Positions 36,052 through 48,212 of a DNA stretch of 53,308 nt are shown here, piece after piece; the stretch's first letter is position 1; the number at the start of each line of letters is the position of its first letter. Location of the stretch: the NCBI GenBank assembly GCA_021160245.1, contig JAGHCW010000226.1, positions 1-53,308 of the forward strand. The letters run 5' to 3'. Origin of the DNA: a bacterium. GTDB lineage: Bacteria > B130-G9. Position numbers and translations under genes: made by a program. The notes below the pieces were generated by a model that saw only the letters and a program-made list of their open reading frames with translations, was not told the origin of the DNA and ran no database searches.

Positions 36052-39000
36052 CTATTCCAGCAAGAATGATGCCGTCCCGATGTCAGAAAGCGGTCTGAGC
36101 GTTCCCGGTTCCACAAGCGCCGTGCGCAGTGTAAATTGGCCCACAACATCAAACGGCTTTGCTCCTGGCAGATTAACCACAAACGATATGAATGACGACT
36201 CGAATCCCGCGGGAAGAGTAACCGCCTCCTGCATCGGCAACACCGAGGCCGACCATCCAACGTCCTCCCCAAATGCCGCCGGCGCAAATAACTGACCATT
36301 CGGCGCCTCAAGAACCGCGTAGAAATCCCCAGTCACCGCGTAGGTCTCCGGCAGTTTCGCGTCAAGCGTCAGGGATATGGAATCCCCCGCGAGGGTATAG
36401 TTCTGTTTGTCCGGGGTCAGGCTTACAAATGGCTCCCCGGATAGGGTAAACTCAACCGTTGAAATATCGCATACAGGAATGAAGGAGCCTGGCGAAACGG
36501 CCGCCATCCGTATTGTATATTGGCCCGACCTCGAGATGAGCGGCAACATACAGGGCAGCTGTGATGACCACCAGCGGGTCGAGACCTCATACCCATTGGA
36601 TATCAGCCAGCTAGCAGCGACAGGTGATATGCCATCTATCCATGCGCCGTCCTGAGAGGCAGACCAGTGCCTCTCCTCAGGTCCATAGAGATCGAATGTC
36701 AAGACCAGATAGACATCCGCCGCGACCGAATCACCCGCATTCGCAATGCTGATAGAGACATTGAGTTCATCACCGAACTTGAACGTGGGCGAATTTGATC
36801 TGACCCCTACGGTCAGCTCCCCCGGAATCGCCACGCCCACACCTAGGAGCGGAATACCCACACGGGGTCTCTCGGGGTCATTGGACGATATGTCCAGCTC
36901 CGCCTCAATCGCGCCGTCTCTATCCGGAGAGAAGGTCACTGTTAGCCATAGCTCTGCATCTGGGGCGATTTCTGTCGGCAGCGAATGGTCCGGCTCAGCT
37001 GTGAATGCCGCGTCGTCCGTCGTAAGACCGCCAACCGTCAGGGGCGCATCGCCAACGTTTTTTATCGTGAGCACCGAGTCCCGCCGCTCTGAGACCGCTA
37101 CTTCCCCGAAATCAAGCACTTGCGCATTTACGAATATCTCAGGCTTGGGAACATGAAAACGCGTGGTTGCATCGGGAGATTCCGGCGCCGCCTCCTCGTT
37201 ACCCGCATAATCAGTGCTGATCGTGTAGAAATCATATCTGCCCTCACCATCTGGGCTCGCAAACGAAAACTGCCCGACGGTTCCGACCTCAACAAGCCCC
37301 GAATCGACCCATTCTCCATCAGCCTCACGATACCAAAGGGCGGTGCTGGCGACTCCGGAGCCGTCGTCCCGTGCCGTAAATGAAACGTCCAACGGCGACT
37401 CGTCCGAGCTGCTGGGCGCCGTCGCGGCCGAGGCGGGCGGGGTTGTGTCAACCTCCACATAGTCGTCCACGCTGCCGGCTGCCTCAACATTCGATGCCCA
37501 ATCTTGCGCCTCAGTATAAAAGTCATAGAAGCCATCTAGCGCGGGCTTCGGCGTGAACTCGAAGGTCCCAGTGGCTTCGAGGACGCTATCTCCCTTGACC
37601 CAGGCGCCGCTATTGTGCCTGTAATGAAGAGATATGCTCTTGATGCCGCAACCTACGTCCGAACTCGTGTACTCCACCAAGATGGGGTAGGAATTCGTCC
37701 GCGACTCGCCAATTGAGCATGAAGATATAGGAGTTACTCTATCCAAATAAATCAACGCCTGAGCCTCAACTGGCGCCACCTCCAGATTGCCGGCAAGGTC
37801 AGTTGCGACAGTATAAAAGGCATACTGACCATCCTGAATTAGTGCCGGGACGTAATCGAAGGCGCCATCCCCTGCATCAGAGGTTAGCCCCGTATCCCTG
37901 AAGGCGCCGCCACTATAGCTCGCCCAAAGGGCAACCTCGGCAAGTTCCGATGTTCCGTCGCTCGCGATGTATGAGACCTGAAGCGGAATAGTATTGGTGA
38001 ATGCGGACGCCGACGCCTTGGAGACCGGCGCCAATCCATCCACAGTCACAGAAACGTCAGGCACACTCGGGGCGGTCTCCACATTCCCTGCCCCATCCGA
38101 TGCAATCGTGTAGAATCGATAATGCCCGTCTGAGACCGTCTCTGGGGTGAACTCAAGCGTGCCCTCGGTGCTAACAGCTGAGATACCCGTATCCTCAAAC
38201 GGGCCATCGCCTATCGAGACCCAAAGGGCCACATCCCCGATTCCGGAGGTCACATCCAAAGCTGCGTATGATAAGCTGATCGGGAATTGCAGGGCATAGG
38301 CCGACTCGGACGTCACCGAAGAAACCGGCTTCGTCCCGTCGAAGAGCACAGCACCCCCGTCGGGCGTCTTCGGCAGAACCTCCCGGTTGCCAGCAAGATC
38401 GATGGCCACTGTTGCGAATTCATATCTTCCATCACCGTGCTGCGGAACGAACGTGAAGCTCCCATTCTCCCGTATTGCGACACCATTCAGGCTCTCTACA
38501 AGGCCCGTATCCTCCCAGTTGCCCCCATCGTATCTGAACCACAGAGTAACGCTGGCAACACCGCTGACTGAGTCATTCGCACTGTATAACACCTCAATTG
38601 GCGAGTCGCTCGTCACTATCCCCGCTGTCGGTATCAGCGACTCCGAAACTGGGGCGCTTGCGTCGAAGACCGTCGGCGCCCCGGCGCTCTCCGGTAGTTC
38701 CTCGACGTTTCCGGCACGGTCAACCCCCCGCGTGCAGATTGCCAGAGCTCCCTCACCCCACGCTGCGAGATTCAGAAACATAATGCTCCCATCGCCCAGA
38801 CCGGAATCACCTGTATCCAGCCATTCGTCGTCGCCAACCATAACCCACGCGGATACTCTCTCAACGCCGGAGACCCCGTCCGCGGCAGTATATGTCAGCG
38901 CGATCGTGGCGAAGCTCGCGTATGCAGGAGCAAAGCACTCCGTCACTGGCGCCGTCCAGTCGATCGTCATCTCGGCGTCCGCCGACGGCGGTGCACACTC

Positions 39001-42000
39001 GAGACGACACGCCTCATCAACGGCGCGCGTGTAAAACTTGTATGTGCCCTCCAACTCATCTGACGGTGTATAGCTAAACTCCCCCGAAACACCCGAGGAC
39101 AAAAGTCCTGTTGCAGCCCAGGGCTCATCTTCGAAACTCGCCCAGAGCGCGACCTCCGCAATGTTGGTCACCGAATCCGAGGCGACAAACGTAATCTCAA
39201 TCGGGAAACTACTCGCATAATCTGCGGTAGCCGCCTCCGAATTAGGAGGGGTGAGATCCACGAGAGTCGAGCACCCATAAACGCTATCCAGTGGCTGCTC
39301 GACGTTCCCAGCCATGTCAGTCCCGATAGCGCGGAATATGTACTCCCCCTCGTTCCCGTTCGCGTCGAAGAGTACGAAGCCCTCGCTCTCAAAGACCGTT
39401 GTGAAGGGCTGCCAAGTCCCCCCAAGAAAGACGCTCATGTCGATCTTCTCGATCCCGAATGGCTCGATTGTGCTGTATGTAATGCCAAACTCGGACGTGA
39501 GGGAGATGCCAGGCGCGGTCAGGGTCGTTGAGGGTCTCGTGCTATCCGCGATGGTCGTCCCGTCTGGCTCCCCTGAGGTTGGTTCCCACAGCCCCCCGAG
39601 GGTTACCGCGCGTGTATAGAACTGATAATACCCATCCCCCTCCAAGCAGTCGAACAAAAGCGTCCCGTCCGATGCAAATGAAGTCAAGCTGGTCGTGGCC
39701 CACGTTGCCCCTTCAGCGTCAACCAGAGACTGGCCAAAGCGATTGTAAAGCGTTACGTAGTCGTATCCCTCATCGCCTATGTCAACTGTGAAGCTAACCT
39801 CCACGGTCGCCCCAGTGACCCACTCCGGGCAATCTATCTCAGAGAGCGCAAGCATCGGATTGAAAAGGCATAGAACGTCCGCCTCACCGTCCGTTCCCTC
39901 CACATTGCCCGCGCCATCCGTGCCAGCAAGGAAGAATCTGTAGTAACCGGGGCCCATGTCGGCCACCCAGCCAAATGTCCCGTCTGGGGTCGCTTCCTCC
40001 AGCCCCGTGTCGCGGAGGGTCTCATCAGAAACACCCTCAAGATCTGTATAACGATAATAGAGGTGAACCAGCGCGATATCCGTCAGCTCATCGACGGAGG
40101 AGAAGATGAGGGCCATCGCCGGGTCATTCACGGCGCTTGGGCCGCTGGCAACCGTTACCGGAGAGTGAGTGTCGTATATACAACACGCATCCTCGCTGTC
40201 CCATGCCTCGACATTACCCGCCCGATCAGTTGCCTCGCTCACAAAATCATAGATGCCGTCCCCAAGGGGAAAGGGGAAATCTAAATTGCCCGATTCCGAG
40301 CTGCTCCAATCGCCTGCTGAGCTATCAGAGAACGTATCGCAGAGACCTGAGTCCATCCAATCGCCGCCGTTGAAGCGATATAGAAGTCTGACACGGTCCA
40401 CGCCTGATAGGGCGTCCGAGGCGTCGTATTCAATTTCCACTGGCGAGTTCATCGTCATCGAATCGCACCCAACAGTCGATGCGGGCAAGACTCTGTCGAG
40501 CGTTACTGAGGCGTCCGGCATCGCCGGCGGGGTCTCATGGTTACCCGCATTGTCCATCGAAATCGTCATCATCTCATAGAGGCCGTCGCCTTTAAGCGGC
40601 ATGAGCTTGCTTGGGTCAAGGTCGAAAGTGCCATAATCGCCCTCCGCGAGCAAGAGCGAGTCAGTCCAAATATCATCGGTCTCGAAACGATAATAGAGCT
40701 TCGTTTGCCCCACCCCGCTCACGCTGTCGGTCGCTGTGAACTGGACCTCAAATGGGATGCTGTTCGTGAACTCAAGCGCGCTACATTCGCTATCAGGGCC
40801 AATCACATCGACAATGGTCGAGGCATCGCCATCACCGGACGGACCCGCCTCGATATTCCCCGCACGGTCCTCCGCTATGCTCTGGAAGTAATAGACGCCG
40901 TCAGCCCCGGATATTGGGAAATCGAAGCTACCCGTATCGCCTATACGGTAGGCGTAGTGGGTCCACGCGCCAGAATTGCGCCTATAATAGAGAGCCACTC
41001 GCAGAACGCCGCTGCCGTTAATATCCTCCGCCCCGAAGGTGATTGTCATCCGGGGGCCCCTCGAATATCCTGGGCCGGAGCAGCTCGATGTGGGGTCCGT
41101 CTTGTCATAGAGGGTGGAGTCGTCGCCATCGCCGGACGGCCCCGGCTCGCTGATACCAACGGTGCTTGTCGCAATCGTCTGGAAATAGTGGGTCCCCTCA
41201 CCATCAGACGCTGTGAAATCGAACGTGCCGGACTCGGCACTATGCTTTTGACCCGTGTCCGTCCAATTTCCGGCCTGACCACACTTGTACCATAGCGATA
41301 CATAATCGAGGCCCCCACCCGTGTCGGTTACATTATAGTTGACCGCGATTGAGGGCGTCTTGCTGAAATCAGGCGATGTGCACTCGCTCTCGGGCGGAGA
41401 TTCTACGAAGACAGTGGATGTGTCTCCATCTCCAGTTGGCCCGGCCTCCCAGTTCCCGGTCTGGTCCTCAGCGACCGTCTGGAAATAGTAGGTTCCCTGG
41501 CCGTCGGTTGGCTCGAAATCGAACGTCCCGGCCTCCCCGGACTCAGTCAGCCCCGTGGCCGTCCAGTCCCCCGCCCAGAATCGATACCAGAGCGCCGTCT
41601 GGGAGATTCCGGCGAGGTTATCCGAGGCGCTGAAAGTTATAGGTATGGGTGACACGCTGGTTTGTCCCGGCGAGCTTGCCTCAGAAGCCGGGGCGGTCTC
41701 ATCGTAAAGGGTCGTCGCATCGGCGGTGCCCGGTGGGTTCTCAGAGTGACCATACGTATCGTATGCAATTGTATAAAACTGGTAGTAACCCTCTCCTTCA
41801 GAGAACGGAAATGAGAGCGTTCCCTGGCTCTGATAGCCTACTGCGCCTGAGTTGGTCCAGCCCGAGGACCAATCAGAGCCGTCCGATGAATAGCGATACC
41901 AGAGGCCCGTTCTGCTATATGTGTATCGGCCGCCATCGCCGACGTAATCTACCCCGACGGGGCTCTCGGATGAATAAGGTTCGCATTCGCACCTGCTAAA

Positions 42001-43284
42001 TGGGTTCGGATCGCCGTATATGGTGGGGTCACCAAGAAGCGTCAACCCATAAAACCAGCTTATCGTGCTTGAGCCGAAGGGATATTTCTCGGAAAACCAA
42101 TCGTTATATGCTTGCCCAATGTTGTTCCCATCCGCGAGCGACTCGAAGAACCTGTGTCCATAATAAAACCCACCCGTCTTAGCGCTGCCCAGCACCAGCT
42201 GACCGTAATCCCCAGCGAATAGATACCACCCGCTTTGGTAGTCAGCAGCCGAATAGTCCGCGTTCGAGCAGGCGAATGTGATGTAAAAATGGAAGCGGGG
42301 ACTATGAGCTATCACGTCTTCCGTGTAGAAATATGAATACCCAGACGGGCTATGAAATTGATGCCCACCCGGCCAAGAGTGGACACAGACAAGTAGCCAT
42401 TCATACTCGTCATCGAGGCGCGTTCCGTAATCGGTCGCGTTCGTGGTCGATGTCTCCGTGACGTGGTCCCTTGAATCGCGCAGATAGTCAAACGCGTCAT
42501 CCCAATATGACCAAAGTGACGCCCAGTCATCGTCGATGTACTCAAGCGCCCGTCGCGGCAGCCTCCGATTCTCAATGCGATACTGATGATTGTTGTTGAA
42601 GAACCGCTTCACAAGGACGACCTCGTCCTCGGACATGTCGTTCGCAGTAACTCGCCCAATCCATATCTCGGCCATCGTATCGCCCGAGCCGTCGGTGTGG
42701 GAATCAAGGAGGTCGTTGCCAGTGGTATCGGTCCAGGAGCCGTCCATATCGCGGTAGTATTGGTCGCATGGGAAGACATCAACACCGTTGAAATCATTGA
42801 GATGCTCAAACCAGGGAATCGGCAGCTCCCCAACAAGGAGACACCCTTCGAACGAACTACCCCAGGTGTTGTAGTAGCCCTGCAGTATCGCCCTTATATC
42901 CTCCTGCGTGCCCCCCTCGGACGTCGCAATGGCAACGGAGTAACCGGCGTCAATCAAATCTTGCTCATAAACGTTCAGCTCGGCCAAGATACTCGGATAG
43001 AGAGTCGTATTCACGAGAACGAGAACCATCCCGCCCGGCGGCGGAGTCGCCTTGTCTGGCCCATCAATCACCTCGAAGCGAAATGGTCTTTGTGGGTGAA
43101 TTTCATTGTAGCGCTCGGCGCGATAGGGGTCGGGCTTCTCAAAATCCGTCCATCTAACAAGCGGCTCCGGATAGCCCGCATCACCTGAAGAACTGGCGGC
43201 ATCACCCTCCTCAAGGGCCCCGCTCTGAGAAGTCAGACCAAAAAGCAGGAACAGCAGTAATGCAAGCACAAAATACCTTTTCAT
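36052..43284 (-). CDS. 2410-residue secreted protein: C25-like head, 16 Ig-like repeats, ASH domain
   Basis: The start is ATG 43284 (GAGGAG upstream; signal peptide MKRYFVLALLLFLLFGL). Residues about 60-430 resemble a gingipain-type (C25) caspase-like fold, with a candidate catalytic His in CVHSWPGGHQFH and Cys in YITFACSNADYS. Residues about 430-2045 hold 16 tandem modules of 95-110 residues. A typical module reads DSVSGVASVTLWFRYDGGNW, then GRYEFATVAIDLAGNREVLP, with a proline at each boundary. An ASH/HYDIN-like domain follows (LDFGEVAVSERRDSVLTIKN), then two beta domains, the first with STRWWSSQLPCMLP as in the FGE-fold protein at 19181. It probably forms a long surface stalk carrying a protease-like head. 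The frame is unbroken over 7.2 kb. Confidence 0.88.
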   Translation of the reverse strand: MKRYFVLALLLFLLFGLTSQSGALEEGDAASSSGDAGYPEPLVRWTDFEKPDPYRAERYNEIHPQRPFRFEVIDGPDKATPPPGGMVLVLVNTTLYPSILAELNVYEQDLIDAGYSVAIATSEGGTQEDIRAILQGYYNTWGSSFEGCLLVGELPIPWFEHLNDFNGVDVFPCDQYYRDMDGSWTDTTGNDLLDSHTDGSGDTMAEIWIGRVTANDMSEDEVVLVKRFFNNNHQYRIENRRLPRRALEYIDDDWASLWSYWDDAFDYLRDSRDHVTETSTTNATDYGTRLDDEYEWLLVCVHSWPGGHQFHSPSGYSYFYTEDVIAHSPRFHFYITFACSNADYSAADYQSGWYLFAGDYGQLVLGSAKTGGFYYGHRFFESLADGNNIGQAYNDWFSEKYPFGSSTISWFYGLTLLGDPTIYGDPNPFSRCECEPYSSESPVGVDYVGDGGRYTYSRTGLWYRYSSDGSDWSSGWTNSGAVGYQSQGTLSFPFSEGEGYYQFYTIAYDTYGHSENPPGTADATTLYDETAPASEASSPGQTSVSPIPITFSASDNLAGISQTALWYRFWAGDWTATGLTESGEAGTFDFEPTDGQGTYYFQTVAEDQTGNWEAGPTGDGDTSTVFVESPPESECTSPDFSKTPSIAVNYNVTDTGGGLDYVSLWYKCGQAGNWTDTGQKHSAESGTFDFTASDGEGTHYFQTIATSTVGISEPGPSGDGDDSTLYDKTDPTSSCSGPGYSRGPRMTITFGAEDINGSGVLRVALYYRRNSGAWTHYAYRIGDTGSFDFPISGADGVYYFQSIAEDRAGNIEAGPSGDGDASTIVDVIGPDSECSALEFTNSIPFEVQFTATDSVSGVGQTKLYYRFETDDIWTDSLLLAEGDYGTFDLDPSKLMPLKGDGLYEMMTISMDNAGNHETPPAMPDASVTLDRVLPASTVGCDSMTMNSPVEIEYDASDALSGVDRVRLLYRFNGGDWMDSGLCDTFSDSSAGDWSSSESGNLDFPFPLGDGIYDFVSEATDRAGNVEAWDSEDACCIYDTHSPVTVASGPSAVNDPAMALIFSSVDELTDIALVHLYYRYTDLEGVSDETLRDTGLEEATPDGTFGWVADMGPGYYRFFLAGTDGAGNVEGTDGEADVLCLFNPMLALSEIDCPEWVTGATVEVSFTVDIGDEGYDYVTLYNRFGQSLVDAEGATWATTSLTSFASDGTLLFDCLEGDGYYQFYTRAVTLGGLWEPTSGEPDGTTIADSTRPSTTLTAPGISLTSEFGITYSTIEPFGIEKIDMSVFLGGTWQPFTTVFESEGFVLFDANGNEGEYIFRAIGTDMAGNVEQPLDSVYGCSTLVDLTPPNSEAATADYASSFPIEITFVASDSVTNIAEVALWASFEDEPWAATGLLSSGVSGEFSYTPSDELEGTYKFYTRAVDEACRLECAPPSADAEMTIDWTAPVTECFAPAYASFATIALTYTAADGVSGVERVSAWVMVGDDEWLDTGDSGLGDGSIMFLNLAAWGEGALAICTRGVDRAGNVEELPESAGAPTVFDASAPVSESLIPTAGIVTSDSPIEVLYSANDSVSGVASVTLWFRYDGGNWEDTGLVESLNGVAIRENGSFTFVPQHGDGRYEFATVAIDLAGNREVLPKTPDGGAVLFDGTKPVSSVTSESAYALQFPISLSYAALDVTSGIGDVALWVSIGDGPFEDTGISAVSTEGTLEFTPETVSDGHYRFYTIASDGAGNVETAPSVPDVSVTVDGLAPVSKASASAFTNTIPLQVSYIASDGTSELAEVALWASYSGGAFRDTGLTSDAGDGAFDYVPALIQDGQYAFYTVATDLAGNLEVAPVEAQALIYLDRVTPISSCSIGESRTNSYPILVEYTSSDVGCGIKSISLHYRHNSGAWVKGDSVLEATGTFEFTPKPALDGFYDFYTEAQDWASNVEAAGSVDDYVEVDTTPPASAATAPSSSDESPLDVSFTARDDGSGVASTALWYREADGEWVDSGLVEVGTVGQFSFASPDGEGRYDFYTISTDYAGNEEAAPESPDATTRFHVPKPEIFVNAQVLDFGEVAVSERRDSVLTIKNVGDAPLTVGGLTTDDAAFTAEPDHSLPTEIAPDAELWLTVTFSPDRDGAIEAELDISSNDPERPRVGIPLLGVGVAIPGELTVGVRSNSPTFKFGDELNVSISIANAGDSVAADVYLVLTFDLYGPEERHWSASQDGAWIDGISPVAASWLISNGYEVSTRWWSSQLPCMLPLISRSGQYTIRMAAVSPGSFIPVCDISTVEFTLSGEPFVSLTPDKQNYTLAGDSISLTLDAKLPETYAVTGDFYAVLEAPNGQLFAPAAFGEDVGWSASVLPMQEAVTLPAGFESSFISFVVNLPGAKPFDVVGQFTLRTALVEPGTLRPLSDIGTASFLLE

Positions 43285-43415
43285 CGAAACTGTCTCCTCA
43301 AACCTTGAAGTCATCAAGAACCGGTTTCTCTAAATATGAGCCACTATAGTATCGTTGAACCGCCTCCGAAGCAAACACAATCAAATATTGAGGCAAAATA
43401 GACTGATACACAGTA

Positions 43416-43551: not shown

Positions 43552-43593
43552 CGGGTAAAAATGAAACGAGGCGCGATCGATGACCGCGCCTCG
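43552..43593 (-). terminator. rho-independent terminator of the C25 protease cassette
   Basis: On the minus strand, CGAGGCGCG (complement of 43585-43593), a 9-nt loop and CGCGCCTCG (complement of 43567-43575) form a perfect 9-bp stem, followed by TTTCATTTTTA. It starts about 35 bp after the protease stop. The loop and T-tract sequence recur after the C1 protease gene. Confidence 0.85.
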
Positions 43594-43627
43594 CTCTGGT
43601 TATGAGTACTAGTTTATCTGTCGAAGC

Positions 43628-45901
43628 TTATCTAACTACTCGCGCCTCGCGCATTGGTCTGAAATGCCTCTCGACGGGACTCGGCAATCCGGCGCCAACC
43701 GGGCCGTGCGCCGTCCATTTGCCATTCGTGTCGATGTCAACCAGCCAATACTGGTATCTGACGCCAGGCCTGACATTGCTGTCAACGAACCTGTATGAGG
43801 CGCCAGCACCTGGGGCGCCCTGCGCGCCAATCAACCTGCTGATGGCCTTTCGCTCCTTACCATCGAAACGATAGATAACGAAACCGGAATTATCGACTTC
43901 CGCGCCCGTCTCCCAAGTCAGCACGATCTTGCCTGCTCTGGCGTGCGCCTCGAAGCTCGAGAGCCTGATGTATGTGTTCAGCTCGCCAATGATGCGAGTG
44001 TGGGGGCAGCCGTAGAGGTTGTAAACGAAGTAGTTATGCCAAGCGGCAGAGCTGCTGTGGTAGGTGCTGAGGTAGTAGTTTGCCTCATAGAATGCCCTTG
44101 CACAGGCGCCGTTTGCGCTGGAATAATCGGTCAGGTTGCGGGCATACCAATAGCCTATGTCCTGGGAGCCGCCCCAGCGACGGGTATATGTGAAGTTGCC
44201 AGAGTAACCCAGCGAGCTGTTCGACGCGCTAGAAGTATTCACCGCGCCCTTCTTCAGCAGAGCATAGCCCAGGTTGTTTGCATCTGATGGCCAGCCATTT
44301 TGGCAGCTGATCTGGAATGTGAACGCCGGATGCGTGTCATCCAGATTCGAGCAATAACTTGTCTTGAATAGGTAGCCCTCGGAGCAGGCTGCTGGGCTGC
44401 CATGTCCTACTACTGCAACAGAATGGTTGCCATGGCCAAACCAAAAGACCAAGCCATAAGCGTGCGCCGCCCACCTGTCCACAACGCTGCCCGCGGCGCT
44501 GATGCCGCCGTGAAGCACTTCGTCCCAAGCATAGTCGCTACGGCAGTTATCATGAGCGTTCTGATACATCTTGTAGGTTGTGAAGTTGCGGGTGCTCAAG
44601 TACTGGTTGATCATGTCACGCGCATAGTAGGACGGGTCAGTGCTCGTCCACGGGAAAGAGAGCGGAAACAGAACCGAGAGGCGCCAGTCGAGATCGCCGT
44701 GCTCCGTGTCGTAGTTGATCTCTTTTTGGATGATGTTGTCCAGATTCGTGTAATCTGTGCCATATACCGGTATGCGAGCCGGATAGATCTCTGGGTCGAG
44801 ATCGGCGTTGTCCTGCCCATACTCACCGAAATACTGGTCTCCGTCGGAATCCCAATCGCCGGTCAAGTCGGCGAAGTAGTAATCGGTCGGAACGGTCAGG
44901 CCGTAACCTGGATACGTATTCTTCATCGGGACATAGGAGTGGCCCGGATCGGGATCACCGATGAACAGAACGTAAACCACACCATAATTCTGGTAGTAGT
45001 CAATGAGCCACTTTCTCATCTTGTCAGCGACGCCATCGGGAGCCTGGCCAGTCTTTGTGCCATAGCCGCCCGCGGTGTCCCCATCCTCGTAACTGTGGCT
45101 TTCCGTGACTGTTAGCACGATATGCCCGACATTCTGAAGATGTGTATTGAGGTTGGCTAGCTCCGTGCTGCCGTTCTTGATCGCCTCTGTCGTCATAATG
45201 ACATAGTCGTAGGAGTCGCCCATCGGTCGGAAGCCATTAGTGAGCTTATACCACTCCCTAGCTTCTCGATAGTTGACGAATCTTGTAGCGGCCTTGTCGT
45301 CGAAGACCATGTCGTTCAGCGATGCCTTGTCAAGCAAATCAGAATCCCGCTCAAACTCGATCCTCAGACGCACGCCATCGCGGAACAGAAGTTGCCGGCT
45401 GATTGGATTGTAGCTGAATGGCGCGTATGCTATTCGGACATACTTCCACTTGCGCATCTGTCCCGTGCCATTCGACTTAATGGTGTCCTCGGGCAGAAAC
45501 TCGTCCGATGAGTAAACGTCAACGTCTTTCCCATCCATAACGTTCGTTGCGCCTTGCCAGTCCTCGGTGAACTCACCGTCGGGGCCAGGAACCATAAGAG
45601 GCGGATGAGGCGCGATATCGAACTGCCCGGGCAGAGCGCTCTCGCCTCTTTCGAGCTCTTCAATCGATATCGAGTCCCACACCACATCAGGCGGCAGGGC
45701 AACGTGATAGACGTTAATTGGCAGCATTGGAGACCCGGGCGTTCCCGCCAGACCGTAGCCGTCCATTTCAATGATCTCACCGTTTTCGACATCCACGATC
45801 TCATACTCAGAGGCCGTGAACTCGACGATAATCTCGTCGGCGAATCCTGCTCCGGTAAGGGCCAGAATCGCCACGATTCCCAAATAAATGCTAGTTCTCA
45901 C
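43628..45901 (-). CDS. secreted gingipain-like cysteine protease (peptidase C25)
   Basis: 757 residues from GTG 45901 (GAGGG 7 nt upstream); the open frame extends to 45967 without an RBS. The signal peptide is VRTSIYLGIVAILALTGAGFA. A pro-region of about 200 residues (YGLAGTPGSPMLPINVYHV) is followed by the C25 domain: YDYVIMTTEAIKNG, VLFIGDPDPGHSYVPM, catalytic His490 in WFGHGNHS and Cys533 in QISCQNGWPS. The C-terminus has a fibronectin-like module (KIVLTWETGAEVDNSGFVIY, LVDIDTNGKWTAHGPV) homologous to that of the neighbouring C1 protease, probably for sorting or attachment. It lies 90 bp after a gene for a 39-residue peptide and is probably expressed with it. Confidence 0.93.
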   Translation of the reverse strand: MRTSIYLGIVAILALTGAGFADEIIVEFTASEYEIVDVENGEIIEMDGYGLAGTPGSPMLPINVYHVALPPDVVWDSISIEELERGESALPGQFDIAPHPPLMVPGPDGEFTEDWQGATNVMDGKDVDVYSSDEFLPEDTIKSNGTGQMRKWKYVRIAYAPFSYNPISRQLLFRDGVRLRIEFERDSDLLDKASLNDMVFDDKAATRFVNYREAREWYKLTNGFRPMGDSYDYVIMTTEAIKNGSTELANLNTHLQNVGHIVLTVTESHSYEDGDTAGGYGTKTGQAPDGVADKMRKWLIDYYQNYGVVYVLFIGDPDPGHSYVPMKNTYPGYGLTVPTDYYFADLTGDWDSDGDQYFGEYGQDNADLDPEIYPARIPVYGTDYTNLDNIIQKEINYDTEHGDLDWRLSVLFPLSFPWTSTDPSYYARDMINQYLSTRNFTTYKMYQNAHDNCRSDYAWDEVLHGGISAAGSVVDRWAAHAYGLVFWFGHGNHSVAVVGHGSPAACSEGYLFKTSYCSNLDDTHPAFTFQISCQNGWPSDANNLGYALLKKGAVNTSSASNSSLGYSGNFTYTRRWGGSQDIGYWYARNLTDYSSANGACARAFYEANYYLSTYHSSSAAWHNYFVYNLYGCPHTRIIGELNTYIRLSSFEAHARAGKIVLTWETGAEVDNSGFVIYRFDGKERKAISRLIGAQGAPGAGASYRFVDSNVRPGVRYQYWLVDIDTNGKWTAHGPVGAGLPSPVERHFRPMREARVVR

Positions 45902-45991
45902 CTTGCTTCCCTCTCTTTGTTTGGTCAATATCAACGAGATAACGCATTTCGGCTCGTGATTCGACAAGCTAGCCAGGCGCGATTAGTCGCC

Positions 45992-46111
45992 CTAGCAGCC
46001 GCTTGAGGAGCCGCCGAAGCCCGTGCAGGACAGCGAGGGTCCCAGCGCAGAGAGGATGCTCTTCGAATCCAATGTGATAACTCTAGGCGCCTCGTAAGTC
46101 TTTGTAGCCAT
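45992..46111 (-). CDS. 39-residue RiPP-precursor-like peptide, copy 1
   Basis: ATG 46111 has AAGGAG 5 nt upstream, the best RBS in the region. The peptide has a leader-like N-terminal half with TYEAPRVITLDS, then ILSALGPS, and a C-terminal core SCTGFGGSSSGC with Cys29 and Cys39. The YxxP-x-V part resembles the leader motif that binds RRE/PqqD-like domains in lasso and radical-SAM peptides; the core is Gly/Ser/Cys-rich like a modified peptide. There is no signal peptide. Copy 2 (47894-48013) differs only at residue 2 (Ala versus Thr). It is followed after 90 bp by the C25 protease. I do not know a named family for it; function inferred only. Confidence 0.85.
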   Translation of the reverse strand: MATKTYEAPRVITLDSKSILSALGPSLSCTGFGGSSSGC

Positions 46112-46277
46112 TGCCACTCCTTCTAAATAGTTGGTTCAGGGCTTTTGCCCAAAAACAAAACGAATTGCATCTCGGGAGAGTTAAGCAGCTCGGGAAGGTC
46201 ATGAACCCCACTGGCCCCATAGGGCTAATTAAGATTCAGCACTTTCCTCTAGCTCCCGAAAGTTCTCCCGCATAAGT
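46112..46277 (-). promoter_or_regulatory. structured 5' leader of the peptide-C25 cassette
   Basis: The untranslated leader upstream of peptide copy 1 is closely similar to the one at 48014-48183. Shared parts include AAAGTGCTGAATC, AGCCCTATGGGGCCAGTGG, CTTAACTCTCCCGAGATG and CCTGAACCAAC. Visible stems are GCCC-TATG-GGGC, CGGGAGA with distant TCTCCCG, and GGGC-AAAA-GCCC shortly before the RBS. Such conservation between flanking copies outside the coding part suggests a regulatory RNA. I recognise no known riboswitch class. Confidence 0.6.
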
Positions 46278-46306
46278 AACATGATGCATATTCCAGCAAA
46301 TGTCAA
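46278..46306 (-). promoter_or_regulatory. promoter of cassette 1
   Basis: TTGACA (complement of 46301-46306), 17-nt spacer, CATGTT (complement of 46278-46283). The -35 and its flank (GTACTTGACAT) are identical in cassette 2. Confidence 0.55.
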
Positions 46307-46431
46307 GTACGTGGAGTTTCCAGAAGATGGAAATGGGCGAATCCCGCTTCGTATGCCCTTTCTCAAAAATCAGCTGAATAGGAGAATATCCAATTCAGTA
46401 GCTCTGGCCGGATTAGTCCAAATGCGCCGCG

Positions 46432-46472
46432 GGTAAAAAAAGAAACGAGTCGCGATCGATGACAGCGCCCCG
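46432..46472 (-). terminator. degenerate terminator of the C1 protease cassette
   Basis: On the minus strand GGGGCGCT, a loop GTCATCGAT and CGCGACTC, then GTTTCTTTTTTTA. The loop, right arm and T-tract match the terminator at 43552-43593, but the left arm has mismatches. An outer CCGCGG/CCGCGG pairing may stabilise it. It lies about 50 bp after the C1 gene. Confidence 0.55.
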
Positions 46473-46524
46473 CGGATGTTCGGTTAGTTCTTTCCTTACT
46501 AAACGCTTGCCAAGCTATCAGCAG

Positions 46525-47802
46525 CTACCTCATCGCAACCACGCCAGCATTCACAGGTCTCAAGTTAAGCCTCTCGAACTCAACTCTCGCACACGCTGGT
46601 CCGTGAGCCGCCCACTTGCCGGCGGTATCGACATCCACCAAGTAGTAGCAGTAGGTTACTCCGGGGGAGGCGTCTTCGTCCACAAACGTGTATGAGTCGC
46701 CGGAGCCCGGCGTACCCTCGGCCTGGATGAAGCCGCTCACCATCTCGTAGCTCTGACCGCTATCGGCGGTTCTGTAGATAACGAAGCCAGCGTTGTCTAT
46801 CTCTGCGCCGGTCTCCCAGGCCAGGATGATATCTGAGCCTTGTGCTTCAGCGTCAAATGAGTTGAGGTCGATGTAGGTCAGAGTATCGCCGGGCTCGATC
46901 TCTAGAGTCCATGTGCCGAACTTGACGCATGTCTGTCCCCATCTGATTCTGAAGTAGCCGCTTTCGGCCCAACCTGCCCCCCAGGAGTTCTTCACTATCC
47001 AATACTTTTCGTCGTCGTCCCAACCGACGATAACGACAGCATGGCCACCCAGGTAATCACCGTATGCGTACTCATAAATCCCACCATCGTAGTAGTAGTA
47101 GAAATCTTCGTACACATCGAGATGTGTGGCGACGGGGTATTGATGGACAGCCTGCTTTATGAGGTTCACGTCCTCGCTTGTGGTGGTGACCCAACTCCAA
47201 GATTCTATCTTCTGCGCCCTTGAGGACCAGTCCGAACACGTATCAGCACAAGGAAGATCCGAGGCCGCGTATGGGAAGCAATCCTCATCAGGACTGCCCG
47301 CAGCGATGTAATACGAAAGAGCAAGGTAAGTGTAACCACCGCTGCAGCTGCCGGCGCCCGAACAAGACAGGATGTGTTGCTCCGAAAGATTGTAGTCGCA
47401 ACCCTCCCTGTTGTGCTTTATTATGGTGCCAGATTCAACGGCTGCGGTTGCCGCGAAATCCCAACAGCTCCCGCAGCTGCCCTGGCTCCTTACAGGGGTC
47501 ACCCAGTTTCCTCCGTTGTCCCTCCAATCGAAGTGAGCAGGAAGGTCCATTGGGCGGTATCCACCCTGGTTCAGGTTTGGTCCGATCGCCGATTCGTCGG
47601 GTTCCAGGTCTCCGCACACCACTTCGCCCGGCAAGTCGACCATCGGGCTCATATTGGCCGTCCAGGGATTGCCCATCTCCTCAAGCTTTGCTCTGACCTT
47701 AGCCAGGTCTTCCTCAGACGCTTCACCAAACACAATGGTGCTGGCAAAGCTAGTCACGGCAATAGTCAATATCACTAGTCGTAACAATGCAAATCGGTTC
47801 AA
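46525..47802 (-). CDS. secreted papain-like cysteine protease (peptidase C1)
   Basis: 425 residues from TTG 47802, with GGGAGG 8 nt upstream. A signal peptide (LLRLVILTIAVTSFAS) and a short pro-region (about 30-85) precede the papain domain: FDWRDNGGNWVTPVRSQGSCGSCWDFA with Gln107 and Cys113, then GGHAVVIVGWDDD with His254, then VKNSWGAGW with Asn272. The catalytic set is complete. From about 310 a fibronectin-like module (DIILAWETGAEIDNAGFVIY; LVDVDTAGKWAAHGPA) matches the C-terminus of the C25 protease next door. It is preceded at 91 bp by peptide copy 2. Confidence 0.95.
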   Translation of the reverse strand: MNRFALLRLVILTIAVTSFASTIVFGEASEEDLAKVRAKLEEMGNPWTANMSPMVDLPGEVVCGDLEPDESAIGPNLNQGGYRPMDLPAHFDWRDNGGNWVTPVRSQGSCGSCWDFAATAAVESGTIIKHNREGCDYNLSEQHILSCSGAGSCSGGYTYLALSYYIAAGSPDEDCFPYAASDLPCADTCSDWSSRAQKIESWSWVTTTSEDVNLIKQAVHQYPVATHLDVYEDFYYYYDGGIYEYAYGDYLGGHAVVIVGWDDDEKYWIVKNSWGAGWAESGYFRIRWGQTCVKFGTWTLEIEPGDTLTYIDLNSFDAEAQGSDIILAWETGAEIDNAGFVIYRTADSGQSYEMVSGFIQAEGTPGSGDSYTFVDEDASPGVTYCYYLVDVDTAGKWAAHGPACARVEFERLNLRPVNAGVVAMR

Positions 47803-47893
47803 TTACTTGTCCTCCCTCTGATATTCACACTTCCATAGATAACGCTTGGCGAATTTGGTCTAGAGAGAAACGCCATAGGCCTCCACCAATACG

Positions 47894-48013
47894 CTAGCAG
47901 CCGCTTGAGGAGCCGCCGAAGCCCGTGCAGGAGAGCGAGGGTCCCAGCGCAGAGAGGATGCTCTTCGAATCCAATGTGATAACTCTAGGCGCCTCGTAAG
48001 TCTTTGTAGTCAT
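47894..48013 (-). CDS. 39-residue RiPP-precursor-like peptide, copy 2
   Basis: It starts at ATG 48013 with AAGGAG 5 nt upstream, and ends TGC TAG at 47894-47899. The sequence is the same as copy 1 apart from residue 2 (Thr), including leader segment TYEAPRVITLDS, ALGPS hinge and the SCTGFGGSSSGC core. Nucleotide identity is also very high (one synonymous CTG/CTC change near the core plus the residue-2 change), so the duplication is recent or kept uniform by gene conversion, although the proteases that follow are of different families. It lies 91 bp before the C1 protease. Confidence 0.85.
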   Translation of the reverse strand: MTTKTYEAPRVITLDSKSILSALGPSLSCTGFGGSSSGC

Positions 48014-48183
48014 TGCCACTCCTTCTAAATGGTTGGTTCAGGGCCCAAATGCCCTTAATGCAAAACGACTCACATCTCGGGAGAGTTAAGTTAGTCAGGA
48101 AGGGTATGAACACCACTGGCCCCATAGGGCTGAATGGGATTCAGCACTTTCCCTCAAACACAATAACTATCCTTCACCGATAA
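48014..48183 (-). promoter_or_regulatory. structured 5' leader of the peptide-C1 cassette
   Basis: Paralogue of the leader at 46112-46277 (see shared blocks there). Changes between copies often keep pairing: TGAAT-CCC-ATTCA is a perfect hairpin here, and the pre-RBS stem GGGC/GCCC persists with a different loop. The CGGGAGA partner of the long-range stem is absent in this copy. Confidence 0.6.
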
Positions 48184-48212
48184 CTATGATACATTCATAT
48201 ATGGATGTCAAG
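48184..48212 (-). promoter_or_regulatory. promoter of cassette 2
   Basis: TTGACA (complement of 48207-48212) within GTACTTGACAT, the same flank as in cassette 1. TATCAT and CATAGT are -10 candidates at 15- and 18-nt spacing. The metG gene is divergent from here. Confidence 0.5.

Follow-up and report, generated by a model that had tools for sequence, protein, structure and literature searches.

In a draft genome of the phylum Candidatus Coatesbacteria, a stretch of 53,308 nucleotides (contig JAGHCW010000226.1 of assembly GCA_021160245.1, positions 1 to 53,308; here called the window) carries two adjacent minus-strand cassettes at 43,552-48,212, each of which places a 39-residue open reading frame (ORF) ahead of the gene for a secreted cysteine protease or protease-like protein. 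These small ORFs are very probably dispersed precursors of a ribosomally synthesised and post-translationally modified peptide (RiPP); maturation would take place in trans, and they would be expressed jointly with exported proteins that share a C-terminal domain (CTD). The evidence comprises a peptide family under selection, the adjacency of its members to CTD genes, a maturation locus common to the sampled Coatesbacteria, and a common leader in peptides encoded at orthologous loci of three unrelated genomes. These observations suggest that the radical-SAM peptide natural products include a new branch with ties to protein export. A preliminary description of the same DNA had named the precursor of a modified product as one of several possible roles of the ORF, and given the maturation loci and the common leader this has become the most likely of them.

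The peptide family and its maturation loci

The two window peptides belong to a family of 29 copies in four Candidatus Coatesbacteria genomes (5, 7, 15 and 2 copies, the window genome holding 5), all of them drafts from a single family; no copy was found in the 94 other genomes searched. The 27 full-length copies have two near-invariant blocks, Y-E-x-P-x-V and L-G-P-S-x-S-C-T-G-F-G-G-S (LGPSLSCTGFGGS), and usually end in cysteine. The motif Y-x-x-P-x-[V/I], of the kind that RiPP recognition elements (RREs) bind, is kept in 26 of the 27, the remaining one having Asn for Tyr, and recurs at three loci outside the phylum. Of the precursors run against Pfam and NCBIfam, none reached a family. A Singulisphaera match of the peptide search (L061) was rejected, as it consists of the string LGPSLSCTG without a leader, followed by a stop. 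Substitutions of the first core cysteine were seen twice, by His in a decayed copy (L066, 5613-5732; MNNIYEVPRVITLDNTALTNLLGANVSHTVFGGAAIC) and by Tyr at L072 1283.

Conservation at the protein level had been set beforehand as a test of the ORF. The window pair alone is uninformative on this point, because its two copies are nearly identical even at silent sites; across the family, synonymous sites are near saturation (proportion of synonymous differences, pS, 0.69), and the non-synonymous proportion (pN) is 0.16 in the YEAPxV block, 0.10 in the LGPSLSCTGFGGS block and 0.47 in the linker between them, with pN/pS at 0.16-0.20 in the conserved blocks. Non-synonymous change thus lies far below synonymous change, and on this pattern of substitution the 39-residue ORF is a genuine protein under selection.

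A search of the four genomes for PqqD and SPASM domains found one RiPP maturation locus per genome, common to all four. The window itself holds no modifying enzyme, as had been remarked earlier; radical SAM genes elsewhere in the genome were also looked for, and a locus with an RRE-bearing radical SAM/SPASM enzyme was found on contig C17 (Table 1). The radical SAM enzymes keep the CxxxCxxC motif and the seven SPASM cysteines, stay below the cutoffs of all NCBIfam equivalogs shown, and have 5wgg and SkfB (6efn) among their nearest solved relatives by profile; a PADLOC match to pVip covered the generic core only and was set aside. In the loci that are long enough (those of G000, the window genome, G001 and G003), and also in G044, a genome outside the phylum, the fourth enzyme gene encodes a C25 peptidase resembling the type IX sortase PorU. 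The PorU model NF033707 gives it 257 and 284 bits against a cutoff of 420, and the catalytic family PF01364 is matched strongly. Genome G001 has in addition a lasso-peptide-like locus (L120, contig C54, 1132-4815) with HprK-like, transglutaminase-like, PqqD and asparagine-synthetase-like cyclase genes, the PqqD of which occurs in this one of the four genomes.

Since all four Coatesbacteria genomes carry both the peptide and the locus, the link between enzymes and peptide is drawn instead from genomes outside the phylum. A survey of 386 genomes across the domain, run first with the kinase and then with the radical SAM enzyme, gives the latter seven carriers at the subfamily threshold (E <1e-75), namely the four Coatesbacteria and the unrelated genomes G044, G139 and G189; the G189 enzyme is 34% identical over 436 aa. 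The G044 locus (L175) runs from PqqD through a small ORF, an exported protein with a fibronectin type III (fn3) domain related to the CTD, the radical SAM enzyme, the HprK-like kinase and the PorU-like C25 peptidase to a signal-peptidase-like protein. This matches the order in Coatesbacteria except for the inserted precursor and exported partner, and all five enzymes are similar to those of the window genome (L116). In G139 (L183) PqqD, a small ORF, an exported protein, the radical SAM enzyme and the kinase are followed by the contig end, and the exported partner combines an fn3-like domain with a type IX sorting domain (35.7 bits, cutoff 23). The G189 locus (L170) has a small ORF directly before the radical SAM enzyme and kinase, and then a secreted repeat protein. 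The precursor gene therefore lies beside the modifying enzyme in these three genomes, whereas in Coatesbacteria it does not.

The three small ORFs (KYVQPEVITYTNDDVIKHLGPAQACSTTPC..., KYEAPKVITYHEDDILEELGPAQACTSPCPAP and TYIPPEVITYSSDEILEELGTVQACNSYDSSC..., with TYEAPRVITLDSKSILSALGPSLSCTGFGGSSSGC as the window counterpart) have in common a leader reading YxxPxVIT..., then LG, with a cysteine at exactly Tyr+23. When a profile made from the Coatesbacteria peptides only was run against 3,693 maturation-locus ORFs, these three ranked first to third (E 4e-7, 0.0014 and 0.015, the next ORF reaching 2.1), and the distances from Tyr to Gly (18) and from Tyr to the first Cys (23) are the same in all nine aligned peptides. 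Dispersed precursors were sought in 0.83 Mb, mostly of G044 and G189, and no ORF other than the locus copies scored, so that dispersal has so far been seen in Coatesbacteria alone. At L172 (G216, contig C34, 395-2283) a related kinase has as neighbours a free PqqD protein and two Gly/Arg-rich ORFs with a common N-terminal motif, SPESPSKRxFIKKTISGIVLLP, possibly a further RiPP type of the same enzyme group.

That these enzymes act on the peptide is proposed here from gene content, and so are every chemical step, the site of cleavage and the function of the product. PqqD-type RRE domains bind leader peptides, and the YEAPxV part would be the leader motif that they recognise, the core being the part after LG (PSLSCTGFGGSSSGC) with its two cysteines. 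Encoded at the single locus on contig C17, the free PqqD protein and the RRE-fused radical SAM/SPASM enzyme would modify the core in trans, probably at the cysteines, while the HprK-like kinase may phosphorylate a core serine and the signal-peptidase-I-like enzyme may cut off the leader. Because the locus holds RRE, kinase and signal peptidase together with a radical SAM enzyme, and two cysteines lie in the core, a path of binding, modification, possible phosphorylation and cleavage appears most likely. In the RiPPs called linear polyphosphorylated peptides (LPPs), binding requires the YxxP motif, and a serine of the core is phosphorylated by an HprK-like kinase (PMC13381572).

Several points weigh against this reading. 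Within the phylum the core hardly varies, which is atypical of antibiotic-type RiPPs; no peptide copy lies on the maturation-locus contigs of Coatesbacteria, so that within the phylum the enzyme-peptide link is one of co-occurrence only; no product exporter was identified; the E-value of the third precursor outside the phylum is weak alone; and the adjacency counts given below are non-independent, as a peptide gene and its CTD neighbour may have been duplicated as a pair.

Exported partners of the precursors

The CTD profile finds 54 copies in the four Coatesbacteria genomes. Nearly all peptides (27 of 29) adjoin a CTD gene in the same orientation, and 22 have it as their immediate 5' neighbour, an arrangement with a naive chance of 1.6e-56 if the kinship of the copies is ignored. 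Among the 27 full-length copies, 13 overlap the end of the CTD gene or begin ≤30 nt from its stop codon, and a ribosome-binding site spans the junction; by this layout, the 13 copies are translationally coupled to the CTD gene. Many partners are beta-helix proteins (one example matches DUF1565 and Beta_helix), the C25-like partner type recurs, the C1 protease of the window is unique among the loci read, and the peptide is found before or after its partner gene. Judged by gene order, the constant companion of the peptide is the CTD, not a protease. The precursor gene, being beside the CTD gene and often coupled to it, would ensure that peptide and exported CTD protein are made together, and the two window proteases would be two such exported partners. 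The earlier view of the peptide as the conserved part, with an exchangeable secreted neighbour, is thus upheld by the 29 copies and their varied CTD partners; the proposed tie to proteases, as enzymes that mature the peptide or are inhibited by it, does not fit most copies, many partners being beta-helix proteins and the common feature being the CTD.

Since the partners mostly share the CTD and the peptide may precede or follow them, an attenuator can be removed from consideration and a protease inhibitor becomes unlikely. An inhibitor, pro-factor or chaperone of the adjoining cysteine proteases would suit the window copies, which precede two such proteins, as well as the further C25-like partners; it is largely refuted by the partner list, in which many beta-helix proteins lack a protease domain and the peptide is unchanged beside all of them, and by leaving the RRE motif and the maturation loci unexplained it is reduced to a highly improbable reading. 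A regulatory upstream ORF, that is, an attenuator leader peptide controlling the protease gene, would accord with the position of the window ORF between a common 5' leader and the protease gene, but 22 of the 29 copies follow a CTD gene, on its 3' side, the leader DNA occurs in the window pair only, and two blocks are conserved at the protein level while synonymous sites are near saturation. Refuted both by position and by the selection pattern, it retains next to no probability.

More weight attaches to a diffusible signal or bacteriocin encoded in many copies, the exported neighbours of which would merely be co-regulated, for instance for surface or scavenging functions. A core that stays invariant over as many as 15 copies in one genome would suit a dose-dependent signal; on the other side, neither an immunity gene nor a receptor or a dedicated exporter was recognised by eye beside the copies, the association is with one domain, the CTD, and not with a type of regulon, and a single signal needs no copy per exported protein. 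Such a role is possible, if doubtful.

In the two window proteins, as described earlier, unlike catalytic parts (no significant similarity) are joined to homologous CTDs (57% identical over 97 aa, E 9e-41). In the larger one, Pfam detects the C25 propeptide (PF08126) alone, and His490-Gly491 and Cys533-x-Asn535 resemble the C25 dyad and are invariant in 7 relatives; the C25-like label is based on this propeptide and the two motifs. When it was compared by profile with the PorU-like enzyme, the propeptide alone could be aligned, and an AlphaFold model of the C25-like protein was discarded (predicted local distance difference test, pLDDT, 48). The CTD model is all-beta (pLDDT 88.9), with fibronectin III as the closest fold, and the type IX sorting domain (TIGR04183/PF18962) was sought in the window proteins and not found. 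The last residue is Arg or Lys in 20 of 25 CTD proteins and in 18 of 108 other proteins, counted over the window pair and the L014-L076 loci; in the fn3-like CTD proteins it looks as if it belonged to a sorting signal.

With a PorU-like enzyme in the locus and a CTD protein as constant partner, the product may, by analogy, end up on or with exported proteins. Extending the precursor reading, the PorU-like enzyme might work as a sortase that cuts the CTD of the neighbouring exported proteins and joins them to the modified peptide as a covalent surface anchor or tag, in the manner of anionic lipopolysaccharide (A-LPS) in the type IX system. Consistent with this are the PorU-like C25 peptidase in the maturation loci of G000, G001, G003 and G044, the CTD genes adjoining the precursors, the C-terminal type IX sorting domain above cutoff in the G139 partner, the terminal Arg or Lys of the CTD proteins, and the PorU of Porphyromonas gingivalis, which is described as a CTD-cleaving transpeptidase (PMC8545088, PMC4560394). 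Against it, the PorU model is matched under its cutoff, a search for the type IX translocon SprA was negative (the control genomes being silent too, so that it had no positive control), the PorU-like enzyme may be unrelated to the peptide, and 25 of the 54 CTD genes have no adjoining precursor. Attachment is thus a speculative extension and, as judged at present, an unlikely one.

The twin cassettes of the window

The twin cassettes are real, and alignments agree with the preliminary description in that they share a -35 flank, a 5' leader, a near-identical peptide, the spacer length and related terminators. Pairwise alignment of the two units gives sharp blocks of identity, high in the -35 flank, leader and peptide ORF and low around the -10 and in the spacer. 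The flank CGTACTTGACAT is common to both units (12 of 14 alignment columns conserved), the stretches around it being just 27-31% identical and those around the -10 region 31%; promoter-like sites are no more frequent than in shuffled sequence. The leaders are 80.6% identical over 139 columns (alignment score 85 against a shuffled mean of -33, sd 5.7). They had been called structured, a term that finds no clear support, as folding relative to shuffles gives z -0.6 for unit 1 and -1.9 for unit 2 and a search of Rfam matched no family. Leader DNA was sought across the window genome and is present in the two window units and nowhere else, and no leader without the ORF, the other condition set beforehand to refute the peptide, was found there. 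A conserved riboswitch was rejected, there being two copies only, with folding near that of shuffles; confined to the window pair, the leader is therefore a local duplication outside the wider peptide module, and a regulatory role for that module in general is not borne out.

The two peptide ORFs are identical at 118 of 120 nt (98.3%), with one synonymous and one non-synonymous change, the latter giving the sole residue difference (T2/A2). The spacers between peptide ORF and protease gene measure 91 bp and 90 bp and are 42% identical. Such identity in the ORFs, at 98% across all codon positions, beside 81% in the leaders and 42% in the spacers, suggests recent gene conversion between the window copies. 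The terminator-like sequence of unit 1 is, from its likeness to that of unit 2, a decayed version of the latter. Directly 3' of the cassettes, at 36052-43317, lies the gene for a secreted protein of 2,421 aa that consists mostly of bacterial Ig-like repeats (Big_13, HYDIN/ASH-like) and has an N-terminal part of C25-like appearance by eye.

Table 1. Features of the twin cassettes in the window and of the maturation locus in the same genome
Feature	Position	Strand	Remarks
Putative precursor peptide 1, MTTKTYEAPRVITLDSKSILSALGPSLSCTGFGGSSSGC, 39 aa	47894..48013	-	29-copy family; leader as in precursors at orthologous radical SAM loci
Putative precursor peptide 2, MATKTYEAPRVITLDSKSILSALGPSLSCTGFGGSSSGC, 39 aa	45992..46111	-	same family; 118/120 nt identical to copy 1
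Secreted papain-like (C1) protease with CTD, 425 aa	46525..47802	-	PF00112, E 6.5e-49; signal-peptide-like N-terminus
Secreted C25-like protein with CTD, 757 aa	43628..45901	-	propeptide PF08126, E 2e-11; two motifs
CTD (fn3-like) of C1 protein, ending in Arg	46525..46875	-	all-beta model, best match fibronectin III
CTD (fn3-like) of C25-like protein, ending in Arg	43628..43972	-	57% identical to CTD of C1 protein
Unit 1	~46,439-48,211	-	C1 protease cassette
Unit 2	~43,564-46,320	-	C25-like cassette
Promoter-like site, unit 1, TTGACA-17-CATAGT	48183..48211	-	10/12 matches; -35 and flank recur in unit 2 near 46,306
5' leader, unit 1, 139 nt	48014..48152	-	81% identical to unit 2 leader
5' leader, unit 2, 136 nt	46112..46247	-	fold z -1.9
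Terminator hairpin, unit 2	43564..43596	-	strong, z -5.7
Terminator-like sequence, unit 1	46439..46471	-	related to that of unit 2, weakened, z -0.5
Maturation locus L116, window genome	contig C17, 512-7649	-	five enzyme genes
L116 free PqqD protein, 96 aa			PF05402 above cutoff
L116 radical SAM/SPASM enzyme, 462 aa			N-terminal PqqD-type RRE
L116 HprK-like kinase, 402 aa			TIGR04352, 57 bits (kinase domain; cutoff 200)
L116 C25 peptidase, 1,075 aa			most like type IX sortase PorU, below model cutoff
L116 signal-peptidase-I-like protein, 204 aa			TIGR02228, 55.3 bits (cutoff 51.85)

Comparison with known systems

RRE-dependent radical SAM RiPPs are an already known class, and what is unusual in Coatesbacteria is the organisation, with one maturation locus serving up to 15 near-invariant, scattered precursors, each predicted to be the companion of an exported protein. 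The open-access literature, to which the search extended (subscription papers lying outside it), yielded no description of this enzyme combination, of dispersed near-invariant precursors or of their pairing with a CTD, and no RiPP paper for the phylum. Because the precursors and the maturase subfamily fall outside the curated models searched, mining tools built on those models would miss the system, as would tools that expect a precursor beside its enzyme.

The closest likeness is to the LPPs of Bacillota (PMC13381572, Nat Commun 2026), which have the YxxPxV leader motif, a discrete PqqD-type RRE, an HprK-like kinase and an archaeal-type signal peptidase I. The Coatesbacteria locus differs in its RRE-bearing radical SAM/SPASM enzyme as core-modifying enzyme, in the two core cysteines and in the PorU-like peptidase, and no NTP transferase or MsbA-like transporter was seen among the ORFs of the loci read; its precursors, moreover, are dispersed, tied to exported CTD proteins and nearly invariant in the core. 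Sactipeptides and ranthipeptides resemble it in the radical SAM CxxxCxxC motif, the seven-cysteine SPASM pattern, the N-terminal RRE and cysteines in the core, a likeness seen in gene content; they differ in that here kinase, signal peptidase and PorU-like enzyme stand in one locus and the radical SAM enzymes score below the NCBIfam equivalog cutoffs. Lasso peptides share the YxxPx[L/V] leader motif, the discrete RRE and, in the paeninodin subgroup, the HprK kinase, whereas the maturation locus has neither an asparagine-synthetase-like cyclase nor a transglutaminase-like (B2) leader peptidase.

Prochlorosin cores are highly variable. One promiscuous enzyme acts on many prochlorosin precursors (PMC10783134), which is the point of likeness; their chemistry, however, is that of lanthipeptides, whereas the Coatesbacteria precursors each have an exported partner and nearly invariant cores. 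The type IX secretion system, lastly, offers a PorU-like C25 peptidase and secreted proteins whose C-terminus has a conserved beta domain and a basic last residue, but the window CTD is fn3-like and unmatched by sorting-domain models, SprA was not found in an uncontrolled search, and a putative RiPP is part of the system. With its RRE, radical SAM enzyme, HprK-like kinase, PorU-like C25 peptidase and signal peptidase, the Coatesbacteria enzyme set would bridge RiPP chemistry and sortase-type surface attachment, and it leads to the testable idea that modified peptides can be parts or anchors of secreted proteins; if attachment proved true, the RiPP would anchor or tag proteins covalently at the surface rather than being a free natural product.

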